A stretch of 58,816 nucleotides of DNA from an uncultured Spirochaetaceae bacterium (GTDB taxonomy: Bacteria > Spirochaetota > Spirochaetia > Sphaerochaetales > Sphaerochaetaceae): the NCBI GenBank assembly GCA_944389025.1, contig CALXKU010000015.1, positions 1 to 58,816 on the forward strand, read 5' to 3'. Positions 3,794 to 47,084 of this stretch are shown here, one piece after another. Below the pieces are notes generated by a model. That model searched no databases. It saw only the letters and a program-made list of their open reading frames with translations, and was not told where the DNA came from. Numbering within the stretch: the stretch's first letter is position 1; the number at the start of each line of letters is the position of its first letter. Made by a program: the position numbers and the translations under genes.

Positions 3794-4728
3794 GGAAGCT
3801 CTTTCTTATGCTTTTGATCATTCCCATTCTTATCTCATGCCGGAAGAGCAGTAGCGACGAGGAGAAAATAGTGGTCACGGCTCTCAATTTCCCATGCTAC
3901 GATGCGGCCCGTGCAGTCATTCGGGATAGTGCGGATCTTGAGATGCTGATTCCCCCAGGTAGTGAAGTCCATGACTGGGAGCCAAGTCCCGATGATGTGA
4001 TAAGGATAATGGAGAGCGATCTCTTCATATATGTCGGCGGTGAGAGTGATGAGTGGCTTGACGGTCTTCTTTCAGACCTTGACGAGTCTGTGAGGCTTTT
4101 CTCTCTGATTGAACATTCTCCTGTCGTCTTTGATGAGGAGACAGTCGAGGGGATGCAGAGCACTGAGCATGAGGAGAAAGACCACTCGCATATCATGAGC
4201 ACCCGCGATGAGCATGTCTGGACAAGTCTTGAGAACATGGCATCCATTGTCAGTGGCATAAGGGATGAGATGGCAGCCATAGATCCTTTGAATGAAGCGT
4301 CCTACAGAGCCAATGCCGATTCCTATGTTTCCGAGCTAAATGATATCAGGGATGATTATGAAAGGATGATTGAAAACTCGGATCGTCGCCTTATCGTTGT
4401 TGCCGACCGTTTCCCATTCCTCTATCTCGTACGGGAGTTCGGCCTTGATTACTATGCGGCATTCCCAGGCTGTGCAAGTGGAAGCGAGCCGAGTGCGAGA
4501 ACTATATCATTTCTTATCGATAAGGTCAAAGAGAAAGGAATTCCCGTTGTCTTCCATATAGAGCTTTCCAATACCCTGATTGCCGAGCTCGTCGCAGATG
4601 AGACGGGTGCCAATGTGAGAGAGCTTAACAGTGCTCAGAACATAAGCCGTATGGATTTCAATGATGGACTGACATATCTGGATATCATGAGGGGTAACCT
4701 CAGCGTTCTTGAGGAGGCGCTCAATTGA
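3790..4728 (+). CDS. znuA: Metal ABC transporter substrate-binding lipoprotein (ZnuA-like)
   Basis: Captures a divalent metal, probably zinc, and delivers it to the permease encoded two genes on. A lipobox L-I-S-C follows the short signal peptide, so it is probably an inner-membrane-anchored lipoprotein. Candidate metal ligands are the His in GSEVHDWEPS, the His in DEHVWTSL and the His in VVFHIELS. Between the first two lies a short His/acid-rich loop (HEEKDHSH), a feature commoner in zinc than in manganese binding proteins. 312 residues, normal for the cluster 9 family. Start ATG overlaps the stop of the regulator (ATGA), implying translational coupling. Confidence 0.87.
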   Translation: MRKLFLMLLIIPILISCRKSSSDEEKIVVTALNFPCYDAARAVIRDSADLEMLIPPGSEVHDWEPSPDDVIRIMESDLFIYVGGESDEWLDGLLSDLDESVRLFSLIEHSPVVFDEETVEGMQSTEHEEKDHSHIMSTRDEHVWTSLENMASIVSGIRDEMAAIDPLNEASYRANADSYVSELNDIRDDYERMIENSDRRLIVVADRFPFLYLVREFGLDYYAAFPGCASGSEPSARTISFLIDKVKEKGIPVVFHIELSNTLIAELVADETGANVRELNSAQNISRMDFNDGLTYLDIMRGNLSVLEEALN

Positions 4729-5435
4729 GTTTTCTTATCAAAGGTGAGCATCTGGATCTCGGTTATGAGGGGCAGGTGATAGTTCATGATATCTCGTTCT
4801 GCATAAACGAGGGGGATTATCTCTGCATACTCGGAGAGAACGGGGCGGGAAAAAGTACGCTTGTTAAAGCGATATTGTCGCTGCATGCACCGCTGAAGGG
4901 GAAAATAGAGTTCTCACCCATGATGAGGAAGAATGAGGTCGGCTACCTTCCTCAGCAGTCAAGTGCGCAGAAGAGCTTTCCCGCAAGCGTTGAGGAGGTT
5001 GTGCTGAGTGGCAGGGTGAACTCCCTCTCTCGAAGGTTCTTCTACACGAGGGAGGATAGGAGGGTGGCAGATGAGAATCTGGAACGCCTTGGAATACTTT
5101 CTTTAAAGAAGAAGTCTTTTTTCGAACTCTCTGGCGGTCAGATGCAGCGGGTACTTCTTGCCAGAGCACTCTCAGCATGCAGGAAGCTCCTGCTTCTGGA
5201 TGAGCCTGTAACAGGGCTGGATCCTCATACCACAAGCGAGTTCTATCATATGATTGACTCTCTTAACAGTGATGGACTCACGATCATAATGGTGACTCAC
5301 GATGTGCATCCGGCTCTTAACGCCGCAAGCCATGTAATGTATCTGGGACGTGGATATTTCTTCGGCCGTAAAGATGATTATTTCTTATCAGAGGAGGGAC
5401 AGAGGTTCCTCAGGGAGGCTGGTCATGATTCTTGA
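4725..5435 (+). CDS. znuC: Metal ABC transporter ATP-binding protein (ZnuC-like)
   Basis: Cytoplasmic ATPase driving metal import. Walker A is GENGAGKST, the Q-loop is in YLPQQSS, the signature is LSGGQMQR and Walker B LLLLDEPVTGLDP, followed by the H-loop VTHDVH. 236 residues, typical length. The start is TTG at 4725, overlapping the preceding stop (TTGA), with GAGGAGG about 8-14 bases upstream. It is the third gene of the regulator-binding protein-ATPase-permease operon. Confidence 0.9.
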   Translation: MSFLIKGEHLDLGYEGQVIVHDISFCINEGDYLCILGENGAGKSTLVKAILSLHAPLKGKIEFSPMMRKNEVGYLPQQSSAQKSFPASVEEVVLSGRVNSLSRRFFYTREDRRVADENLERLGILSLKKKSFFELSGGQMQRVLLARALSACRKLLLLDEPVTGLDPHTTSEFYHMIDSLNSDGLTIIMVTHDVHPALNAASHVMYLGRGYFFGRKDDYFLSEEGQRFLREAGHDS

Positions 5436-6237
5436 GATGCTCTCATATCCTTTTATGCAGAGGGCGATAATAGTGGGACTTCTCGTCTCTCTTTCCGCAT
5501 CCCTCCTCGGGGTGTCTCTCGTACTTCGGAGGTTCTCCATGATCGGTGATGGGCTGAGCCATGTGGGATTCGGTGCACTTGCTGTCGCTTCTGTTTTCTC
5601 CCTCTCTCCGATGGCGGTAACGGTTCCCATCGTTGTTGTTTCCGCAGTTCTCCTTTTAAGGGTGAGTGAGAAAGCCAAGATCGGCTCTGAGAGCATGATA
5701 GCCCTGATAAGCTCATCCTCTCTTGCTCTGGGTGTCATGATGATAAGCTATGTGAAAGGAACGAATGCCGATATCAACAACTATCTTTTCGGTTCCCTCC
5801 TGGCGGTAAGCAGAAGTGATGCCATTTTCTCTGCCATCCTCTCCTCCATGGTTCTTTTATGCTATGTTCTGCTTTATCCCAGGCTATTTGCGGTAACGTT
5901 TGATCAGGTGTTCTCTGAAGCCTCCGGAATACATTCATCCCGCTACACTCTGCTTCTTGCGGTGCTCTCTGCGTTGACCGTGGTGCTTGGAATGAGGATG
6001 CTTGGCTCACTCTTGATAAGTGCGCTCATAATCTTTCCCCCTCTTACTGCAATGAGGGTATTCAAGACTTACAGGGCCGTAACAGTTTCAAGCGCTATCA
6101 TATCGATTGTCTGTTTCATGATAGGAATAAGCCTCTCTTATGCGGTTGGCACTCCGGTCGGGGCAAGCATCGTGAGCGTGAATCTTGTCGCTTTCCTCAT
6201 GTTCTCCATTGTCCGTCTTATTCTGAGACGTAACTGA
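5425..6237 (+). CDS. znuB: Metal ABC transporter permease (ZnuB-like)
   Basis: Integral membrane permease with about eight hydrophobic helices, 270 residues, ABC-3 family. Characteristic features are the early segment SLVLRRFSMIGDGLSHVGFGA and a late ALIIFPPLTAMR. The start at ATG 5425 (MILEMLSYPFM) is preferred over the longer frame because GGGAGG lies about 8 bases upstream; it overlaps the ATPase gene by 11 bases. Last gene of the operon; its stop abuts the stop of the convergent haemolysin III gene without any spacer, so a classic terminator between them is absent. Confidence 0.88.
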   Translation: MILEMLSYPFMQRAIIVGLLVSLSASLLGVSLVLRRFSMIGDGLSHVGFGALAVASVFSLSPMAVTVPIVVVSAVLLLRVSEKAKIGSESMIALISSSSLALGVMMISYVKGTNADINNYLFGSLLAVSRSDAIFSAILSSMVLLCYVLLYPRLFAVTFDQVFSEASGIHSSRYTLLLAVLSALTVVLGMRMLGSLLISALIIFPPLTAMRVFKTYRAVTVSSAIISIVCFMIGISLSYAVGTPVGASIVSVNLVAFLMFSIVRLILRRN

Positions 6238-6894
6238 TCATGTGAGATAAATGAGTATTCCGACGTAGAAGAATATGGATCCCATAAGAACGAACAGGTG
6301 CCATATGCCATGGTAGTGCGGTATCTTTTTTACAGCGTAGAAGAGAAGGCCCGATGTGTAGCTTATCCCGCCAAGAATCATGAATTTCATAATTCCCTCA
6401 GGAATGAACGGGAATATATCGCTGTAAAAGAACACGCATAGCCATCCCATGATAAGGTAAAGGATTACATGCACCACCTTTAGTTTTTCCCAGAAAAGGA
6501 TTGTGACGGTGATACCTAAGACAACTATTGCCCACATCGCCATGAGCAGATTCATGCATTCTTCTGATCCCACATAGGTTAGAATCGGAGTGTATGTGGC
6601 AGCAATCAGGATGTAGATGCTGCTATGGTCGAATATCCTGAAAATCCTCTTAGCATTCCCCTTTTTTAGAGCATGATAGAGTGTCGATGAGAGATAGAGC
6701 AGTATGTTTGCCACGGCATAGGTTATCATACCGCCTCTCAAGCTAAGGCTTTCCATGCTCTTGCATAAAAATAGTACGAAAATGAAAGCTGCTACTGCGA
6801 GTATGCTTCCCAAGAGGTGCGTATCCGTATTGATCTTCTCATCCCTCGGATCTGTGTAAACAGGGAGGGGAATCTTTCTTTCCAACCAGCTCAT
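6238..6894 (-). CDS. Haemolysin III / PAQR family membrane protein
   Basis: Seven-helix membrane protein of 218 residues related to bacterial haemolysin III and eukaryotic PAQR receptors. Conserved positions visible: the N-terminal DEKINTDTHLLGS, the STLYHAL segment, the RIFDHSSIYILIAATYTP block and the C-terminal GIWHLFVLMGS with the His that forms the putative metal site of this superfamily. Biological role uncertain; members have been linked to lipid metabolism and hydrolase activity. Single gene, convergent with znuB. Confidence 0.88.
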   Translation of the reverse strand: MSWLERKIPLPVYTDPRDEKINTDTHLLGSILAVAAFIFVLFLCKSMESLSLRGGMITYAVANILLYLSSTLYHALKKGNAKRIFRIFDHSSIYILIAATYTPILTYVGSEECMNLLMAMWAIVVLGITVTILFWEKLKVVHVILYLIMGWLCVFFYSDIFPFIPEGIMKFMILGGISYTSGLLFYAVKKIPHYHGIWHLFVLMGSIFFYVGILIYLT

Positions 6895-7030
6895 ATGAAA
6901 AGCCTAAGCCTGATTTGAGAGCTCCAACAAGAGTCAATATTTCCTATTTTTGCCTTTTTCTACGTGTAGTGAATGCTTACTATCCAAGGTTTTTCTTTCA
7001 ATGGAGTGACCACTGATGTAGAATTGTGCT

Positions 7031-8146
7031 ATGGAAAAGAACCTTGAGAGCACATTAAGACGCCGTTTTGCCCGCTCCCTTTCAGCCATCTCGGTAAAAT
7101 CGTGGGAAAGGATGGAGAGCGAGGTTGAGATCGATGGAAAGAGGCGGAGTGCGGATCTGTTTGAAGCCGTGATAAAAGGTGACATCTTCCGCCTTTACAT
7201 AAGACAGATAAGGATAAACAGGACATTCTTCAAGAAGGAGGAGGTCTATGATACGTATGAGCTTGACAGAGCGCCTTGCAAGGCTTTCTCATTGAGGGAG
7301 GTCCTTAACCTGATAAGGGATTCAGGCTATACGGTTCCCTCCTCTCTTTTCGAATCGGGGCGCGATAACTATGGCCTTCCTCCGACTACGCTTCATAGGA
7401 AAGGGGAGGGTGTTAATGCCTTTTTTCATAACTTGAGGAGTTTCGGAATAAGGAGTCTCCGCCTTGTCCTTGATTATGACAGTTCTGCTGAGGGTTCTTT
7501 CTCCCTCTCACTTCTGCTATCTGCTCCCGAGGCGGTGGATACGGGGAACCTTTCCCGCCTTGAGCTTGGAATACATGATTTTGACAGGGAAGTGTCAGAT
7601 GATAAGAAGAAGGCCATGATAAGATATCTCAGCCTGCTCTCAGTCTTCTCCATGCATGCTGGACTCGAGATATTCAACATAGTGGACTATATGAGCCTTA
7701 TTGAGGTGATGCAGGAAAGGGGAAGGGATGATGATTACTCGTTCGCGATTGAAAAGGGCATGAGCCAGTACTGCCTTTCCCATCCCGAGTTCGGAGGCGA
7801 ATCCTATGCCGATTACGGTATACGTCTCACCCCTCTTGATTTCGCATGGTATCTTGATGGTTTCAGGGATACGGACAGCCAGAGGAACGTATTCTTCTCC
7901 TATTACGATTCCGTACTCTCTGAGGAAGATGGGGATGAGGAGGCACATTATCTTGGTCTTCTCGGACTTAAGAAGGGCGCCTCATGGGATGATGTCCAGA
8001 AAGCCTATAAGAGCACCGTCCAGCGTTTTCATCCGGATAAGATATCATCACTTGATATCGACCCGTCGTTTACGGATTTCGCGAACATGCAGATGCAGAG
8101 GGTGAATGAAGCTTATGATAGGCTGAAGAGACTCTTTACTTCTTAG
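7031..8146 (+). CDS. Protein with C-terminal J domain
   Basis: 371 residues. The last roughly 65 residues form a J domain: HYLGLLGLKKGASWDDVQKA, then FHPDK carrying the HPD tripeptide that stimulates Hsp70 ATPase. The preceding 300 residues are not recognised; they contain no zinc-finger or Gly/Phe region, so this is a class III-like J protein with the J domain at the C-terminus, as in DjlA/TerB-type proteins. It probably recruits DnaK to a specific client. It overlaps the convergent DUF2188-like gene by 11 bases. Confidence 0.75.
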   Translation: MEKNLESTLRRRFARSLSAISVKSWERMESEVEIDGKRRSADLFEAVIKGDIFRLYIRQIRINRTFFKKEEVYDTYELDRAPCKAFSLREVLNLIRDSGYTVPSSLFESGRDNYGLPPTTLHRKGEGVNAFFHNLRSFGIRSLRLVLDYDSSAEGSFSLSLLLSAPEAVDTGNLSRLELGIHDFDREVSDDKKKAMIRYLSLLSVFSMHAGLEIFNIVDYMSLIEVMQERGRDDDYSFAIEKGMSQYCLSHPEFGGESYADYGIRLTPLDFAWYLDGFRDTDSQRNVFFSYYDSVLSEEDGDEEAHYLGLLGLKKGASWDDVQKAYKSTVQRFHPDKISSLDIDPSFTDFANMQMQRVNEAYDRLKRLFTS

Positions 8147-20417: not shown

Positions 20418-21661
20418 AACGGAGCTTTCTCCTCAACGCTCATCTCCTCTCCGGTCGCAGGATGTGTGAATGTTATCCTCGCAGCATGAAGCATCAGGCG
20501 CTCTCCTTCGATGAGGTGTCCATAAAGACGGTCTGAGAGAATCGGGTGAGATATGTATGCGGCGTGCACTCTGAGCTGATGGGTGCGCCCCGTTAGGGGA
20601 TAGAAACGGACCCTTGAGCAGAGGATGCCATCCTTCCACTCATATGAGAGCACCTTGTAATCTGTAATGGCATTCTTGCCATCCTTGAAATCTATTATCT
20701 GATATGGCCTGTTATCGATATCGAGGCGCATCGGAGCCTCAATCCTTCCTTCCCTGTTTTCGAGCCGGCCTTCCAGAAGTGCCTCATACTCTTTTTTCAC
20801 ATTCCTTCTTTCAAAATCCATTGAGAGCTTCCTGTGATCCTCTCTGGTGAGGGCGAGTATCAGGAGGCCGGAGGTGTCCATGTCTAGCCTGTGTACGAAA
20901 GGGCTTTGGGGTGTGCGTGGAAATATCTTTTTAAGCCTCTCGGATGCTGAATCAAGCTTCTCTATCCCCTTTCCAGGAGCTGAAAGGAGCCCCGAATCCT
21001 TGTTTATCACGGCGATGTGCTCATCAAGGTAAATGAAGTCAAGGCCGAGCATCCTCTTTATTATCTTCCGACATCGCTCCTCACATGGGCTATAGCATTC
21101 TCCGCATTTCCTTTTTGTCGTTTCTGGCCCATAGTAGAACTCTGTGAAACCGAGAATCTTATAGCCTTTTCTCATCGCATGATTGAGAACCTTGATTCCC
21201 GCGCAGTCTCCGCTTCCCGTCGGCATTCTCCCGCCCTCCAAGTCGCGGAGTGTGAAAGTGCCCCCGTTTATATCGGTAAAGATATGAAGATCTGCGAACC
21301 GATCGGAATAGAGAGAGCTTCTCCTTCTTCTCTCGCTCTCGCTTATTCCATCTTCCTTCACGCTCTCATCACACTCTTTCTCAAGCGCTTTGAATGCATT
21401 GATGCTGTATGTCGGATTTACATATCCGGGTACCTGATGGTGGCTCTCAGCCAGACCTGAGAACCCTTTTATGACGACACGCTCTCCTTCCTTTGTCTCT
21501 GCAATCAGGATTGCGAACATTAGACCTTTTCGCTCTTTAAGAAGATTCTCACTCCTATACTCTTTTAATGGGGGATATGAGTAGCTCCCGCTCTCCCTGA
21601 AATGGGCAAGCATCTTATCCTTCTCTTTGAGCACATCCTCTGTTACAAGTGAAAAAGGCAT
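20414..21661 (-). CDS. RluA-family pseudouridine synthase with extended N-terminus
   Basis: 415 residues. The C-terminal about 215 residues are a RluA-type catalytic domain: DEHIAVINKDSGLLSAPGKG, then FVHRLDMDTSGLLILA containing the catalytic Asp in HRLDxxTSG, and LTGRTHQLRVH. The N-terminal about 190 residues are unusual: a segment VVIKGFSGLAESHHQVPGYV and a Cys cluster CGECYSPCEERC that may bind zinc. Longer RluA proteins of this type occur in several anaerobes. ATG 21661 is preferred because AGAGGGA stands 5-11 bases upstream; an in-frame ATG at 21706 lies inside a terminator-like hairpin. Target RNA unknown. Confidence 0.85.
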   Translation of the reverse strand: MPFSLVTEDVLKEKDKMLAHFRESGSYSYPPLKEYRSENLLKERKGLMFAILIAETKEGERVVIKGFSGLAESHHQVPGYVNPTYSINAFKALEKECDESVKEDGISESERRRRSSLYSDRFADLHIFTDINGGTFTLRDLEGGRMPTGSGDCAGIKVLNHAMRKGYKILGFTEFYYGPETTKRKCGECYSPCEERCRKIIKRMLGLDFIYLDEHIAVINKDSGLLSAPGKGIEKLDSASERLKKIFPRTPQSPFVHRLDMDTSGLLILALTREDHRKLSMDFERRNVKKEYEALLEGRLENREGRIEAPMRLDIDNRPYQIIDFKDGKNAITDYKVLSYEWKDGILCSRVRFYPLTGRTHQLRVHAAYISHPILSDRLYGHLIEGERLMLHAARITFTHPATGEEMSVEEKAPF

Positions 21662-41018: not shown

Positions 41019-42470
41019 CTATTTCGTCCAGAATTTCTTAGTAAAGAGGGAGAATACCGTGAAAAGTTCAAGCCTTCCAACGAGCATGAGTGCTGATAGA
41101 ACCCACTGGAACGGGGCTTCAAAATCATGGAACGAGGTGCTTACTCCCATTCCTCCGATCGCGATTCCTATGTTACCGATTGCCTGCATGACGCTTGTGA
41201 GGCAGGTTACGAAATCCATGTCGGAAAGAGAGATTATCACAGTGCCGATAAGGGCTGTGATGAGATAAAAGCACACGAAACCAGCGATTGAGAGGCATGT
41301 GTCGGTATTGTACGTATCATCTCCTATCCGGACGGTGGTGAGTGCGTTCGGATGGTTCCTTTTTATCATGGCGTTCGTTCCCATCTTGAAAAGGACGCGG
41401 ATCCTTATTACCTTGATTCCCCCTCCCGTACTTCCTGCGCATCCTCCGATGAACATCATCAGGAACATCAGCATCTGCGGAAACATCGGCCAGAGGTTGT
41501 AGTCGGTGCTGTAAAAGCCGGTTGTCGTTATGATCGAAACAATCTGGAAGAACGCGTGTCTTATGCTGTCATGAAGGTTGAAAAATCCCTTTGCGAAGAG
41601 ATTCAGTCCCGCAAGCAGGCTGGATATGGCGACAATCGCGAAATAAAGGCGGTATTCACCGTCGTGAAACACCCTGCTGAATTTTCTTTGAATGAGTTTG
41701 AAGTAAAGAGCGAAATTTCCACCGGCAATGAACATGAATATTATGCATATCCACTCCACATAGGCGCTGTTAAAGCTTGCAATTGACTGGTTCGTAGGTG
41801 TGAATCCTGCAGCTCCCATCGTTCCGAACATGACTGTGAGGGAATCGAAGAGAGAGAGGCCTCCAAGCTTTAAGAGTATTACCTGTATTGCGCTGATACC
41901 TATGTATATGAGCCAGAGGGACATCGCCGTTCCCCTTATCTGCGGGGTAAGCTTGTCCTTTGTAGGCCCTACGGACTCGGCTCCCACCAGTGCCGTTCCT
42001 TTTACTCCGAATACGGGGAGAACGGCTACGAAGAGAACTACGATTCCCATACCTCCGAGCCAGTTCGTGAGGTTCCTCCAGAATAGTATCGAGTAGGGGT
42101 GGTCCTCTACGACAGGGATTGCTGTGGCTCCGGTTGTTGTGAAACCGCTCATTATCTCGAAGAATGATTCAGAATAGGAGGTTGTCGTTCCTGTAAGGTA
42201 AAGGGGAAGACAGCCGAATGCTGTTGCGACTATCCAGGTAAGGGTTACGAAAATATAACTGTCCTTTACTGATATGTCCAGAATCCTGACCTTTCTGGTA
42301 AAGAGGAGGATGATCAGGCAGAATGCTAGAATCATGCCCTCGGTCTTGAAGAACGCAACAAGACTTTCATACTCCCCATAGTAATATGCCATGCCTGTGG
42401 GAATGAGTATGATCAGCCCGATGAAGAGCATTATGTATGATAGAAGTTTTAGATCGGCTTTAAGGTTCAT
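41019..42470 (-). CDS. trkH: Trk potassium uptake membrane subunit TrkH
   Basis: 483 residues with about ten helices and the four pore loops of the Trk/Ktr family: SGFTTTGATAI, FGTMGAAGFTP, ITTTGFYSTDYN and AIGNIGIAIG each carry a filter Gly. GGCAGSTGGGIKVIRI is the intramembrane loop typical of TrkH. Forms potassium uptake complex with the TrkA protein encoded directly upstream; the TrkA stop and TrkH start share one base. Confidence 0.92.
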   Translation of the reverse strand: MNLKADLKLLSYIMLFIGLIILIPTGMAYYYGEYESLVAFFKTEGMILAFCLIILLFTRKVRILDISVKDSYIFVTLTWIVATAFGCLPLYLTGTTTSYSESFFEIMSGFTTTGATAIPVVEDHPYSILFWRNLTNWLGGMGIVVLFVAVLPVFGVKGTALVGAESVGPTKDKLTPQIRGTAMSLWLIYIGISAIQVILLKLGGLSLFDSLTVMFGTMGAAGFTPTNQSIASFNSAYVEWICIIFMFIAGGNFALYFKLIQRKFSRVFHDGEYRLYFAIVAISSLLAGLNLFAKGFFNLHDSIRHAFFQIVSIITTTGFYSTDYNLWPMFPQMLMFLMMFIGGCAGSTGGGIKVIRIRVLFKMGTNAMIKRNHPNALTTVRIGDDTYNTDTCLSIAGFVCFYLITALIGTVIISLSDMDFVTCLTSVMQAIGNIGIAIGGMGVSTSFHDFEAPFQWVLSALMLVGRLELFTVFSLFTKKFWTK

Positions 42471-43834
42471 CAGGCATTCGCTCCAAACATCGCCTGCACC
42501 GTCTGCTGGTCGCGGTGTGCCGCTGCAACTATTACCGTGTCGTTGAGTGTGAACGAGTAGTTTCCTCCAGGAATGAAGTTCTCCCCATCCCCTCTCTTTA
42601 TTCCTGCTATTATCATTTTGCCTCTGAGATTGACATCCTTAAGGGCTTTATCAAGGAATTTGAAATCTTTTCCGATGAGGAACTCGTAAACCTCAAGATC
42701 TCCGTCAAACAGGGTGTGCAGTGTCTCGATCGTAGAGCCTCTGAGATGCCTGACAAGGGTGTCAACCGTAGCGTTGGTCGTACTTATTGCGGCATCAATA
42801 TCGAGATGAGAGGCAAGCTGCAGGTAGTTGTTATTGGTCTTTACGAGTGAAATCACCCTTTTTACTCCGAGGCGTTTGGCGTAGAGAGATGCGATGATAT
42901 TAAGCTCATCGTTTTCCGTGACACTTATGACGAGGTCCGAGTCCGAAAGCTTTTCCTCATCCCATACCGCCTCATCCGTGATGCTTGCATTCAGAACCAA
43001 TATCTCAGGGAAAAGATCCAGGAACTCTCTTGCATCCGCCTCGCTCTTTTCGATGAGCGTGACCTTTTTTCTCTCCTGAGGGGTAAACGAAGAGAGGAGA
43101 TAGCGTGCTATCCTCGTGGCTCCGATTATGAGCATTTTCCTTATTCTGGAATTGTCCACGGGGCCGTTGAGCTCGGAGAATATGTTGCGGCTTTCCTCCT
43201 CATCCACGATTATCGCAATCTCATCCCCGACTTTTATCACCGAGTCACCATAAGGAGTGAAGACCTTGCCTTTCCTTCTTATCCCAGCAATGACATACTG
43301 CCCTGGTATTTCCTTTCTCGCTTCTATGAGTGTCTTGTCCCTGAATGGGCTGTCTTTTGTTATCGGGGTTGCAAAGAGCATGAAGTGGGCATCAGGGAAT
43401 GAGATGACATCCCTGTAGAGTCCGCTCCTTATAATACCTATTATTCTATTTGCAGCCTCCTGGTCGGGGTTCACGATGTATGATATCCCTAGAATCGGAT
43501 GGTGTGATTCCTTTCCCAGGTAGCTTATGCTTCTTATTGCTGCTATCGTTGTCTTTACTTGCGGGAATTCTGAGGCTACAATACCGCAGCTCACGAGATT
43601 TGTCTCGTCGTTGTCCGTTACCGCGATTACCGCATCGGAGTCGGGAACTTCCGCCTCTATGAGCTTGTCCACATCGGTCGCGCTTCCGCATATTGCCATG
43701 CAGTCAAGTTTCGCAATCGCCTGCTGACACCTTTCCGAGTTTGAATCGAGGAATATAACGTTCTTGTTCTCCTCGATCAAATGTTTTGCAAGGCGCAAGC
43801 CTCTCCTTCCTGCACCTATGATGACGACTTTCAT
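42470..43834 (-). CDS. trkA: Trk potassium uptake regulator TrkA
   Basis: 454 residues, two tandem RCK units. The first starts VVIIGAGRRGLRLAKHLIEENKNVIFLDSN (Rossmann, Asp for NAD), the second MLIIGATRIARYLLSS; each is followed by a TrkA-C domain. Binds NAD(H)/ATP and gates the TrkH channel. Upstream of it lies the 331-base interval with the divergent hsp20 promoter. Confidence 0.93.
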   Translation of the reverse strand: MKVVIIGAGRRGLRLAKHLIEENKNVIFLDSNSERCQQAIAKLDCMAICGSATDVDKLIEAEVPDSDAVIAVTDNDETNLVSCGIVASEFPQVKTTIAAIRSISYLGKESHHPILGISYIVNPDQEAANRIIGIIRSGLYRDVISFPDAHFMLFATPITKDSPFRDKTLIEARKEIPGQYVIAGIRRKGKVFTPYGDSVIKVGDEIAIIVDEEESRNIFSELNGPVDNSRIRKMLIIGATRIARYLLSSFTPQERKKVTLIEKSEADAREFLDLFPEILVLNASITDEAVWDEEKLSDSDLVISVTENDELNIIASLYAKRLGVKRVISLVKTNNNYLQLASHLDIDAAISTTNATVDTLVRHLRGSTIETLHTLFDGDLEVYEFLIGKDFKFLDKALKDVNLRGKMIIAGIKRGDGENFIPGGNYSFTLNDTVIVAAAHRDQQTVQAMFGANA

Positions 43835-43988
43835 AGCCCATGATTATATCGAGCCTTATATTCTAATGCAATATTGCAGATGATGCTTTCCTTTTGTATA
43901 TAGAATAATTATTTATATTATAAATAGTTATTTAGGATATGTGTTAATATGATACATATTTGCCAGCCCTTGAAAGAGCTCAGGTAGA

Positions 43989-44045
43989 CAAAATGTCCCA
44001 TTTTAAACGCTCCGCCTGATATGGTGTATCAAAATGACTCATTAA
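43989..44045 (+). promoter_or_regulatory. Paired upstream activator-like sites
   Basis: Two direct copies of CAAAATG-N3-CATT (43989-44004, 44030-44045), each built on the palindrome ATG-N3-CAT, with centres 41 bp apart, close to four helical turns. They lie about 60-115 bp before the -24 element, where enhancer-binding proteins for sigma-54 normally bind. Confidence 0.5.
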
Positions 44046-44105
44046 TAAGGATTCTCAAATGTATCTTAAAATATAAATCATTAAAATATAATGAATTATA
44101 AAAGT

Positions 44106-44121
44106 TGGCACGCTATTTGCA
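44106..44121 (+). promoter_or_regulatory. Sigma-54 (RpoN) promoter of the hsp20 pair
   Basis: TGGCACGCTATTTGCA: TGGCAC at -24 and TTGCA at -12, with GG and GC 10 bases apart, an exact match to the consensus TGGCAC-N5-TTGCW. Predicted start of transcription near 44133, with AAGGAGG 13 bases before the ATG at 44166. Confidence 0.8.
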
Positions 44122-44165
44122 TTATTGGTTGTACAAAACAAAAAGAAAGTTAAGGAGGCCCTAAA

Positions 44166-44567
44166 ATGGCAATAATGAAATATCAGAGACACTACAACGA
44201 TTTGGATGGACTTATCGATTCCCTTTTCACAGGAGTTAAGATTCCACCTGTAGACATCAAGGAGACAGCTTCAGGATACGCTATCAGCGCAGAGATTCCT
44301 GGATATAAGGAGAATGAGATCAACCTCTATGTTGAGAACCACGTCCTTACTCTCGAGGGAAAGAAAGAAGAGAAGAAGGATGAGAAGGATGGAAAGAAGT
44401 ACCTTGTAAGAGAGCGTGTTGTAAGAGACTTCAAGAGAAGCTTCACACTTCCTGAGGATGCCGATGAGGAAAAGGTGAGCGCATCTTTCAAGAATGGCGT
44501 TCTCGAGATAGATCTTCCGAAGACTGAGAAGGCTCAGCCGAAGAGGATTGAGGTAAAGGCTAACTAA
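44166..44567 (+). CDS. Small heat-shock protein Hsp20, copy 1
   Basis: 133 residues. Alpha-crystallin domain from about residue 34: PPVDIKETASGYAISAEIPGYKENEINL and FTLPEDADEEKVSASFKNGVLEIDLPK, where A-x-x-x-n-GVL is the signature. ATP-independent holdase that keeps unfolding proteins soluble until Hsp70 acts. The short N-terminus is followed by the crystallin core; the tail lacks a clear I-x-I/V beyond RIEVKAN. First gene of a pair behind a sigma-54 promoter. Confidence 0.93.
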   Translation: MAIMKYQRHYNDLDGLIDSLFTGVKIPPVDIKETASGYAISAEIPGYKENEINLYVENHVLTLEGKKEEKKDEKDGKKYLVRERVVRDFKRSFTLPEDADEEKVSASFKNGVLEIDLPKTEKAQPKRIEVKAN

Positions 44568-44579
44568 GGAGGCAGGACG

Positions 44580-44984
44580 ATGAGATACTATATTCAGAGA
44601 GATTTTCCAAGTCTGTTCGATTTCGACAGTTTCTTCAATGATTTCTTCGAGTCCAGCTCAGACAGGTTCCCACCTGTGGACGTGTTCGAAACGGATAATG
44701 CATACGTGATCGAAGCAGAGGTTCCGGGCTACAAGGAAGATGATATAAAGATCTTCTGCAAGAACAGGGTTCTTACAATCTCTTCAGATGCTGTAACGAA
44801 GGAAAGGGAGAACGGTTTCATAACCGAGGAAATCTCGCTTCCATCTTTCCAGAGGAGCTTCCAGCTTCCTGATGATGCTGATGAGGACATGGTAAGCGCA
44901 ACAAGCGAGAATGGAATCCTTTCCATAACAATTAGCAAGAAAGAGAAGAAGGAACCAAAGAGAATTGAAGTTAAAATTAACTGA
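44580..44984 (+). CDS. Small heat-shock protein Hsp20, copy 2
   Basis: 134 residues, alpha-crystallin domain FPPVDVFETDNAYVIEAEVPGYKEDDIKIF and FQLPDDADEDMVSATSENGILSITISKK. A tandem relative of copy 1, 12 bases downstream with AAGGAGGCAGG before its ATG. Two sHSPs of this kind often co-assemble. A strong terminator follows at 45018. Confidence 0.93.
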   Translation: MRYYIQRDFPSLFDFDSFFNDFFESSSDRFPPVDVFETDNAYVIEAEVPGYKEDDIKIFCKNRVLTISSDAVTKERENGFITEEISLPSFQRSFQLPDDADEDMVSATSENGILSITISKKEKKEPKRIEVKIN

Positions 44985-45017
44985 TAATTCCCTATAATAT
45001 ATGGACTCAACACACAG

Positions 45018-45055
45018 CAGGGTGCTTTCAGGCGACTGAAGGTACCCTGTTTTTT
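45018..45055 (+). terminator. Terminator of the hsp20 operon
   Basis: CAGGGTGCTTTCAG (45018-45031) pairs with CTGAAGGTACCCTG (45036-45049) with G-T pairs, loop GCGA, followed by TTTTTT (45050-45055). Confidence 0.85.
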
Positions 45056-45115: not shown

Positions 45116-46408
45116 ATGCAAAATAGAAGAAAACTTCAGCCGGGATTGCAACTTGCTCTGGGCTTCCTGCTGATTATCGTTACGGGAGCCGTGCTCCTAT
45201 ATCTTCCTCTTTCGCATCAGGATGGGGTTGAAATATCGTTTCTTGATTCTTTTTTCGTCTCCACTTCGGCCGTATGCGTTACCGGTCTCACACCTGTGGA
45301 CATCTCTAAGACTCTATCCGATTTCGGATCGTTCATTCTGATGCTGCTGATACAGCTTGGAGGACTCGGATATGCTGTTCTCGCCGTTCTGATAATCCGC
45401 TTAGCAAGTGGAAAGATAGACGCCTCAACTGGCAATCTCCTCAGAGATTCGCTTGGTGCCGATCACAGGATGGGGACAAAGAAGCTTCTTACGCTGGCAC
45501 TTTCCGTTACAGGTATAATAGAGCTCCTGGGAGCGGTGCTGCTGTTCATATCGTTTTCTGGCAGATATCCGCTTGCAAGGGCTGTGTACCTCTCCATATT
45601 CCACTCGGTCTCCGCATTCAACAACGCGGGATTCGATCTTTTCTCCGACAGTCTCATGAAGTGGAACGAGGATCCGCTCGTGCTGATAACAATCGCTTCG
45701 CTGATTGCACTCGGCGGTCTTGGATTCATCCTGTATGGGGATCTTCTGGATCACATCAGACACGGTAAGAAGATAACCGTCCATACGAAGATCGTGCTTT
45801 CGACTACGCTATTCCTGATTGTTTCCGGAACGGTGCTCTTCCGTCTTATTCTTCCTGGCATCGACTGGAAAAACGCGTTCTTCCAGTCGGTTACGACAAG
45901 GACTGCCGGGTATTTCTCTTACGATCAGTCGATTCTGCCCCCTGCGGGAGTCGCTCTTACAATCATTCTGATGTTCATCGGTGCATCCCCGGGCTCCACA
46001 GGTGGCGGTGTTAAGACCACATCGTTCTTCACGGCTGTCAAGGCCTCATTCTTCCTGATTCTTGGAAGAAACCCTGTGGCGTTCAAGAGGGAGATCAGTT
46101 CCGAGTCCGTCATGAAGGCGTTTTTCGTCATCATAATATCTGTACTGCTTGTGGCGATGGCAACCCTTGCGATATCGATTACGGACCCTGAGTTCGGTGG
46201 GGATCAGATACTCTACGAGGTCGTGTCAGCTTACGCTACTGTCGGTCTTACGATGGGAATTACTCCGTCTGTCTCATCTGCGGGGAAAATCATTCTAATA
46301 ATAATGATGTATCTCGGAAGGGTTGGATTCATGACGATAATATCGGCATTCGCACGTCGCCGTCTTACTGGCGCAAGATATATAGAAGAGAAGGTAATCA
46401 TAGGATAG
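45116..46408 (+). CDS. ktrB: Ktr potassium uptake membrane subunit (KtrB-like)
   Basis: 430 residues with about ten helices, shorter than TrkH as expected of KtrB. Pore-loop segments STSAVCVTGLTPVD, SAFNNAGFDLFSD, TTRTAGYFSYD and YATVGLTMGITP carry the filter glycines; the intramembrane loop is SPGSTGGGVKTTSFF. Works with the RCK protein encoded 4 bases downstream for sodium-dependent potassium uptake. The 60 bases between the hsp20 terminator and this gene give little room for its promoter. Confidence 0.9.
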   Translation: MQNRRKLQPGLQLALGFLLIIVTGAVLLYLPLSHQDGVEISFLDSFFVSTSAVCVTGLTPVDISKTLSDFGSFILMLLIQLGGLGYAVLAVLIIRLASGKIDASTGNLLRDSLGADHRMGTKKLLTLALSVTGIIELLGAVLLFISFSGRYPLARAVYLSIFHSVSAFNNAGFDLFSDSLMKWNEDPLVLITIASLIALGGLGFILYGDLLDHIRHGKKITVHTKIVLSTTLFLIVSGTVLFRLILPGIDWKNAFFQSVTTRTAGYFSYDQSILPPAGVALTIILMFIGASPGSTGGGVKTTSFFTAVKASFFLILGRNPVAFKREISSESVMKAFFVIIISVLLVAMATLAISITDPEFGGDQILYEVVSAYATVGLTMGITPSVSSAGKIILIIMMYLGRVGFMTIISAFARRRLTGARYIEEKVIIG

Positions 46409-46412
46409 GACC

Positions 46413-47084
46413 ATGAGAAAGAAAGATGGTAATCAGGTATTCGGTGTTATAGGAACGGGCAGGTTCGGTCTTGCTGTTGCGGAGGAACTCCTCTCCAGGG
46501 GCAAGTATGTTATCGCCCTCGATCAGGATCAGCAGAGGCTCAAGCCACTTTATGAGACCGATGCGGAGGTCTTCGTTGTGAATGACATCTCGAAGGAGTC
46601 GCTCATGGATGCGGGACTTCAGGAGGCCGATACCGTGATAGTCGGAATCGGAAAGGATGTCGAGAGCTCGATTCTCGCAGCCCTCAACGCTCTTGAGCTT
46701 GGAGTGAAGCATGTCATATGCAAGGTAATCAGCGAGGACCACGCCAAGATTCTTAAAAAGCTCGGTGCCGATGTCGTATTCCCGGAGACTGAGATTGGAA
46801 GGCGTACCGCAATAAGGCTCTCAGAGCGCCTTGCAGAGGATATCCTCCCCCTTTCAGAGGAGTTCTCAATCATACAGATGAGAACGCCTGCAGAGCTTGA
46901 CGGGAAGACTGTCAAGGACATCAAAATCCGTGAGCGCTACGGAATAACTCTTATCGCGGTAGTACGGGATGGGAAGGCAAACGGTAGTGTCGGCCCTGAT
47001 ACTGTGCTCCATGTCGATGAGATCCTCGTACTCTCAGGATCGAACAAGGATCTTGATAAGTTCCAGCATTCATTTAATGACTGA
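46413..47084 (+). CDS. ktrA: Ktr potassium uptake regulator (KtrA-like)
   Basis: 223 residues, a single RCK_N plus RCK_C unit: FGVIGTGRFGLAVAEELLSRGKYVIALDQD is the nucleotide loop and LDGKTVKDIKIRERYGITLIA starts the C domain. One-unit length distinguishes KtrA from TrkA. Forms an octameric ring gating KtrB. Followed by a terminator. Confidence 0.92.
   Translation: MRKKDGNQVFGVIGTGRFGLAVAEELLSRGKYVIALDQDQQRLKPLYETDAEVFVVNDISKESLMDAGLQEADTVIVGIGKDVESSILAALNALELGVKHVICKVISEDHAKILKKLGADVVFPETEIGRRTAIRLSERLAEDILPLSEEFSIIQMRTPAELDGKTVKDIKIRERYGITLIAVVRDGKANGSVGPDTVLHVDEILVLSGSNKDLDKFQHSFND

Follow-up and report, generated by a model that had tools for sequence, protein, structure and literature searches.

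The locus described here raises the question of how a pair of small heat-shock genes comes to be placed behind a sigma-54 promoter, and which enhancer-binding protein would switch it on. It lies in a contig of 58,816 nucleotides from an uncultured Spirochaetaceae bacterium, which was analyzed at its full length and is called the window below. Judged from the sequence, the pair is very probably switched on by a relative of the Borrelia regulator Rrp2, acting via upstream sites that are common to a stress sigma factor gene.

A sigma-54 promoter in front of two hsp20 genes

The sequence TGGCACGCTATTTGCA (44106-44121, + strand) matches the motif TGGCACGN4TTGCW perfectly, with the GG of the -24 element and the GC of the -12 element at the correct spacing, and it is conserved in relatives. 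A preliminary description of this DNA had reported an exact RpoN consensus, and this is borne out, the site being the only exact match within the window. The complete genome (2.31 Mb) contains four such matches, none of them inside a convincing gene. Sigma-54 geometry places the predicted transcription start at 44132 (+), about 12 bp past the -12 GC, and it is followed by a Shine-Dalgarno sequence, AAGGAGG (44152-44158, +), and by hsp20-1 (44166-44567, +), which encodes a small heat-shock protein of 133 aa. The hsp20-2 gene (44580-44984, +; 134 aa) is located 12 bp 3' of hsp20-1. Both ORFs, already described as hsp20 genes, were confirmed by the Pfam HSP20 profile with E values of 2e-26 and 2e-23, respectively. 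A hairpin resembling an intrinsic terminator, with a 16-bp stem and a T run, is found 3' of hsp20-2 (45016-45051, or 45016-45055 in its wider extent, +), about one such site being expected by chance in the region. Gene pairs for Trk/Ktr-type potassium uptake lie on either side of the operon (41019-43834 and 45116-47084), as named from the ORF translations.

Three palindromes upstream of the promoter

Two copies of CAAAATG-N3-CATT had been proposed as paired binding sites of an activator. Both copies exist (43989-44002 and 44030-44043, 41 bp apart) and are the only exact ones in the window, but relatives do not keep the CATT half, and the alignment of the promoter region with theirs revealed instead three conserved blocks whose core is the palindrome TGTCA-N3-TGACA. 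AAATG-N3-CATT occurs 29 times genome-wide against 21 for the reversed control, and because it is hardly enriched we dropped it as the recognition unit.

The first putative upstream activator site, TGTTAATATGATA (43942-43954, +), is located 164 bp 5' of the -24 element, outside the interval of the preliminary description, where it was overlooked. It is aligned and conserved in relatives, with TGTCAAAATGATA in G070 and TGTAAAAATGACA in G074 as its counterparts. The second, AGACAAAATGTCC (43986-43998, +), is a degenerate copy 120 bp 5' of the -24 element that corresponds to TTCAAAAATGACA in G070, and the third, TATCAAAATGACT (44027-44039, +), lies at 79 bp, a distance that is among the preferred positions in relatives. 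As sequence, the three are thus placed where activator sites are expected, about 80-200 bp upstream. The copies in the window are imperfect, departing from TGTCA-N3-TGACA at roughly 2 to 4 positions, and the perfect palindrome is found in relatives, for example as TGTCAAAATGACA in G062. A search of the same genome for TGTCAAAATGANA, allowing 1 mismatch, gave 13 matches, of which only those at a sigma factor gene have an evident sigma-54 promoter downstream.

This gene (contig C18, 11001) encodes a group-2 sigma factor of 290 aa (RpoS/RpoD-like), hereafter type A, and is preceded at C18:10959 by a sigma-54 site with one mismatch, an arrangement shared with the Borrelia-type cascade. Three palindromes precede this promoter at a spacing of exactly 40 bp. 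On the same strand, about 4 kb before this gene begins, the contig carries a histidine kinase gene (4724-5866) followed by a gene for an NtrC-type regulator (5878-7245).

Conservation of the promoter and the palindromes

From a sample of 81 genomes of the family, probably Sphaerochaetaceae, belonging to 22 genera we took the best 30 hsp20 loci and the best 30 sigma loci, of which 28 and 29, respectively, could be scored. Counting best matches with no more than 2 mismatches, a sigma-54 site was present in 26 of the 28 hsp20 loci, compared with 0.9% of shuffled sequences, and 21 of these 26 also contain the palindrome at up to 2 mismatches (2.3 expected). At the group-2 sigma loci, the sigma-54 site was found in 29/29 and the palindrome in 28/29 (3.5 expected), and about 20 palindrome pairs are phased at exactly 40 bp. 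A blind search for the palindrome followed by a gap of 60-90 bp and a sigma-54 site in 139 family genomes yielded 25 matches, against none for the reversed pattern used as control. Since 23 of the 25 precede an hsp20 gene or this group-2 sigma gene, the search points to a small, dedicated regulon; the two matches found elsewhere look like chance.

Extending the blind search to the whole class gave three further matches, two of which precede hsp20 genes in other families. The genome scan beyond the family used the sigma alignment as query, the hsp20 alignment being too variable. In other families, 34 of 36 type A loci have a sigma-54 site at up to 2 mismatches, and the palindrome occurs in 8 of them at up to 1 mismatch (0.16 expected) and in 20 at up to 2 (2.7 expected), again with the 40-bp spacing. 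Taken within the family and beyond it, this conservation supports the earlier proposal that sigma-54 and upstream activator sites would control hsp20. Sigma-54 promoters were found 5' of group-2 sigma genes in over 30 spirochaete families, and therefore a cascade from Rrp2 and sigma-54 to a sigma factor seems to be ancestral.

A second group-2 sigma gene, type B, was observed in 18 families (loci L254-L271), with a sigma-54 promoter in 18/18 genomes. TGTCA-N3-TGACA was found at only 1/18 of the type B promoters at up to 2 mismatches, with 0.95 expected, and we therefore abandoned the idea that all the sigma genes driven by sigma-54 use the palindromes. In the phylogenetic tree, the type A sigma factors form a separate clade (support 99/98), and the Borrelia-like RpoS, whose branch is very long, is provisionally grouped with type B. 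The sigma factors of L365 and L368, labelled as Bifidobacterium breve and Polynucleobacter MAGs, are as near to the query as the Bacteroidota ones listed, and these contigs are possibly mislabelled bins, as judged from the match list only.

Sigma-54 machinery and the Rrp2 orthologue

The search for rpoN and enhancer-binding protein genes, suggested earlier as a check on the promoter, was successful. The genome has one rpoN gene, whose product contains the AID, core-binding, and DNA-binding domains, and encodes four enhancer-binding proteins (EBPs), two further weak matches being other AAA proteins. Those of contigs C18 and C12 are NtrC-type response regulators, each adjoining a kinase; the third is PspF-like and adjoins a pspA gene that has its own sigma-54 promoter, and the fourth, on C36, is devoid of a receiver domain. 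Two pspA-like genes were observed, each directly behind a sigma-54 site (C4:57316 and C4:114164), and pspF (C4:58292-59299) lies beside phage terminase-like genes.

Contig C27 carries two perfect sigma-54 sites in tandem (20441-20456 and 20628-20643, - strand; locus L054, 6270-6790), each followed by a similar short stretch, CAGAGCAA..CAGTTTTTTC..CCTCCTT (similar to an anti-Shine-Dalgarno sequence), and by a hairpin resembling a terminator. These units, located just 5' of an rlmE/ftsJ-like gene, contain no clear ORF and are candidates for sigma-54-dependent small RNAs. No palindrome was found upstream of the tandem sites, and an Rfam search of the intergenic transcripts returned nothing credible.

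The C18 regulator has the receiver, AAA+, and Fis-type HTH domains of the Rrp2 family and follows its kinase. One clear orthologue, with 52-66% identity, was found in 51/51 genomes spanning 45 families, the other EBPs of these genomes being mostly below 50% identity to it. The gene order cvpA-holB-histidine kinase-EBP, with names taken from the translations, is common to our genome (G000), to the Borrelia-like G194, and to Treponema-like genomes; the Borrelia-like label of G194 rests on its 0.93-Mb chromosome and its rpoS neighbourhood. The pair occupying this position in Borrelia is HK2-Rrp2, and the shared order shows the C18 regulator to be the orthologue of Rrp2. In most other genomes and families, a C18-type regulator gene is located 3-14 kb upstream of the type A sigma gene.

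The recognition helix of these orthologues, IGRKTL(H/Y)RK, with IGRKTLHRK as its H form, is near-invariant. All three Borrelia-like genomes and G151 have IGRKTLHNK instead, the T. pallidum-like G211 has IGRKTLYLK, and G381 and G222 have IGRKTLYQK, so the Borrelia Rrp2 has lost an arginine that hardly varies elsewhere. In G222, the type A sigma promoter has no palindrome, and the other genomes with a changed helix have no clear type A sigma gene. This correlation, built on few independent losses, fits what would be expected if the helix reads the palindrome.

Proposed explanation and its alternatives

The explanation that we consider probable is the following. The two hsp20 genes would constitute a single operon, which the sigma-54 RNA polymerase would transcribe from the site at 44106-44121. 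The C18 regulator would bind the three sites of the TGTCA-N3-TGACA type located about 80, 120, and 164 bp upstream and, once bound, would contact the closed complex by looping of the DNA and activate transcription. The adjacent kinase, which occupies the HK2 position, would presumably phosphorylate the regulator in response to a signal. The same regulator, through like sites, would also drive the group-2 sigma gene on C18, so that the small heat-shock proteins and the stress sigma factor would be co-induced as one small direct regulon. We can thus point with good confidence to the Rrp2 orthologue as the activator, which the preliminary description held to be unknown, given that the palindromes also precede the sigma gene near the gene of this orthologue.

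It is unlikely, although the genome encodes four EBPs, that this promoter, while sigma-54-dependent, is activated by another of them, i.e., the NtrC-type protein of C12, PspF, or the EBP of C36. The C12 type in particular is widespread in the family and shares about 40-45% identity with the C18 regulator. However, the sites seen at hsp20 recur at the sigma gene near the C18 regulator but not at the pspA promoters, the likely PspF targets, where TGTCA-N3-TGACA is absent, and the C12 protein has a different recognition helix, ISRRTLISK. In addition, G073 (92% complete) and G028, two incomplete genomes in which the only EBP found is of the Rrp2 type, keep the hsp20 sites, a finding that lends support but is not final.

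We give little credence to the possibility that hsp20 is expressed mainly from a sigma-70-type or a group-2-sigma promoter, the sigma-54 site being secondary. The E. coli ibpAB genes, which belong to sigma-32 and whose ibpB sigma-54 promoter is disputed, would offer a parallel, but no sigma-70-like site was found between 43840 and 44165, 5' of hsp20-1, and no CIRCE inverted repeat, with up to 3 mismatches allowed, exists in the window, which also sets the operon apart from the CIRCE/HrcA-controlled class of heat-shock genes. Moreover, nearly all the relatives have the sigma-54 site of their hsp20 loci at a suitable leader distance. Finally, it is scarcely credible that AT-rich intergenic DNA produced the sigma-54 site and the repeats by chance, since the poor genome-wide enrichment of AAATG-N3-CATT is outweighed by the conservation and enrichment of the elements across genomes.

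Comparison with known systems

The activation of the operon by the Rrp2 orthologue would provide a likely activator and a predicted binding site for a sigma-54 heat-shock operon. In the myxobacterium Stigmatella aurantiaca, the small heat-shock gene hspA reportedly has a sigma-54-type promoter. Another parallel is ibpB of E. coli, a small heat-shock gene for which a sigma-54 promoter has likewise been proposed. This precedent had been regarded as established, but it is disputed: the sigma-54 ChIP signal at ibpB is only at background level and a misannotation has been suggested (PMC4591121), although the promoter is still cited by others (PMC4370416). Unlike the ibpB site, the one described here is kept across many genera and is accompanied by putative activator sites, and it would thus represent a conserved example of small heat-shock proteins controlled by sigma-54. 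In a survey of 2025 based on PSSMs, IbpA/COG0071 belongs to a chaperone cluster that is linked to sigma-54 and enriched in Planctomycetota and Bacteroidota (PMC12316311). We found no report of an hsp20/sigma-54 regulon in spirochaetes, which is weak evidence of novelty, as subscription journals were mostly outside the search.

The enterobacterial PspF/pspA system is likewise a sigma-54 stress response, and our genome carries pspF as well as two pspA genes placed behind sigma-54 promoters. It differs from the hsp20 circuit in that PspF has no receiver domain and in that its likely targets here are without TGTCA-N3-TGACA.

The hsp20 circuit also resembles the Rrp2-RpoN-RpoS cascade of Borrelia burgdorferi, with which it shares a predicted activator that is orthologous (cvpA-holB-HK2-rrp2 order, 52% identity) and, as target, a group-2 sigma gene located behind a sigma-54 promoter. 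Three differences can be noticed. Firstly, the small heat-shock genes would be direct targets here. Secondly, the sigma target here is the type A paralogue and not an orthologue of the Borrelia RpoS, which groups with type B. Thirdly, no binding of the Borrelia Rrp2 to the DNA upstream of rpoS was observed, and its activation of rpoS was reported to be enhancer-independent (PMC1976401), whereas enhancers are recognizable here as palindromes conserved at both hsp20 and the sigma gene. The way in which signals set off rpoS transcription in Borrelia is still described as an open question (PMC11898620).

We lean towards the reading that a circuit of Rrp2, sigma-54, and palindromes governing the sigma gene and hsp20 is ancestral to Spirochaetia, and that the enhancer-less virulence cascade of Borrelia is a reduced derivative of it, from which the type A sigma gene, the enhancers, and the recognition-helix arginine have disappeared. 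This reading offers an evolutionary answer to the enhancer-free behavior of the Borrelia Rrp2: its relatives have TGTCA-N3-TGACA sites, and the helix expected to read them is the one altered in Borrelia, whose switch would then look like the eroded form of an ancient stress circuit.
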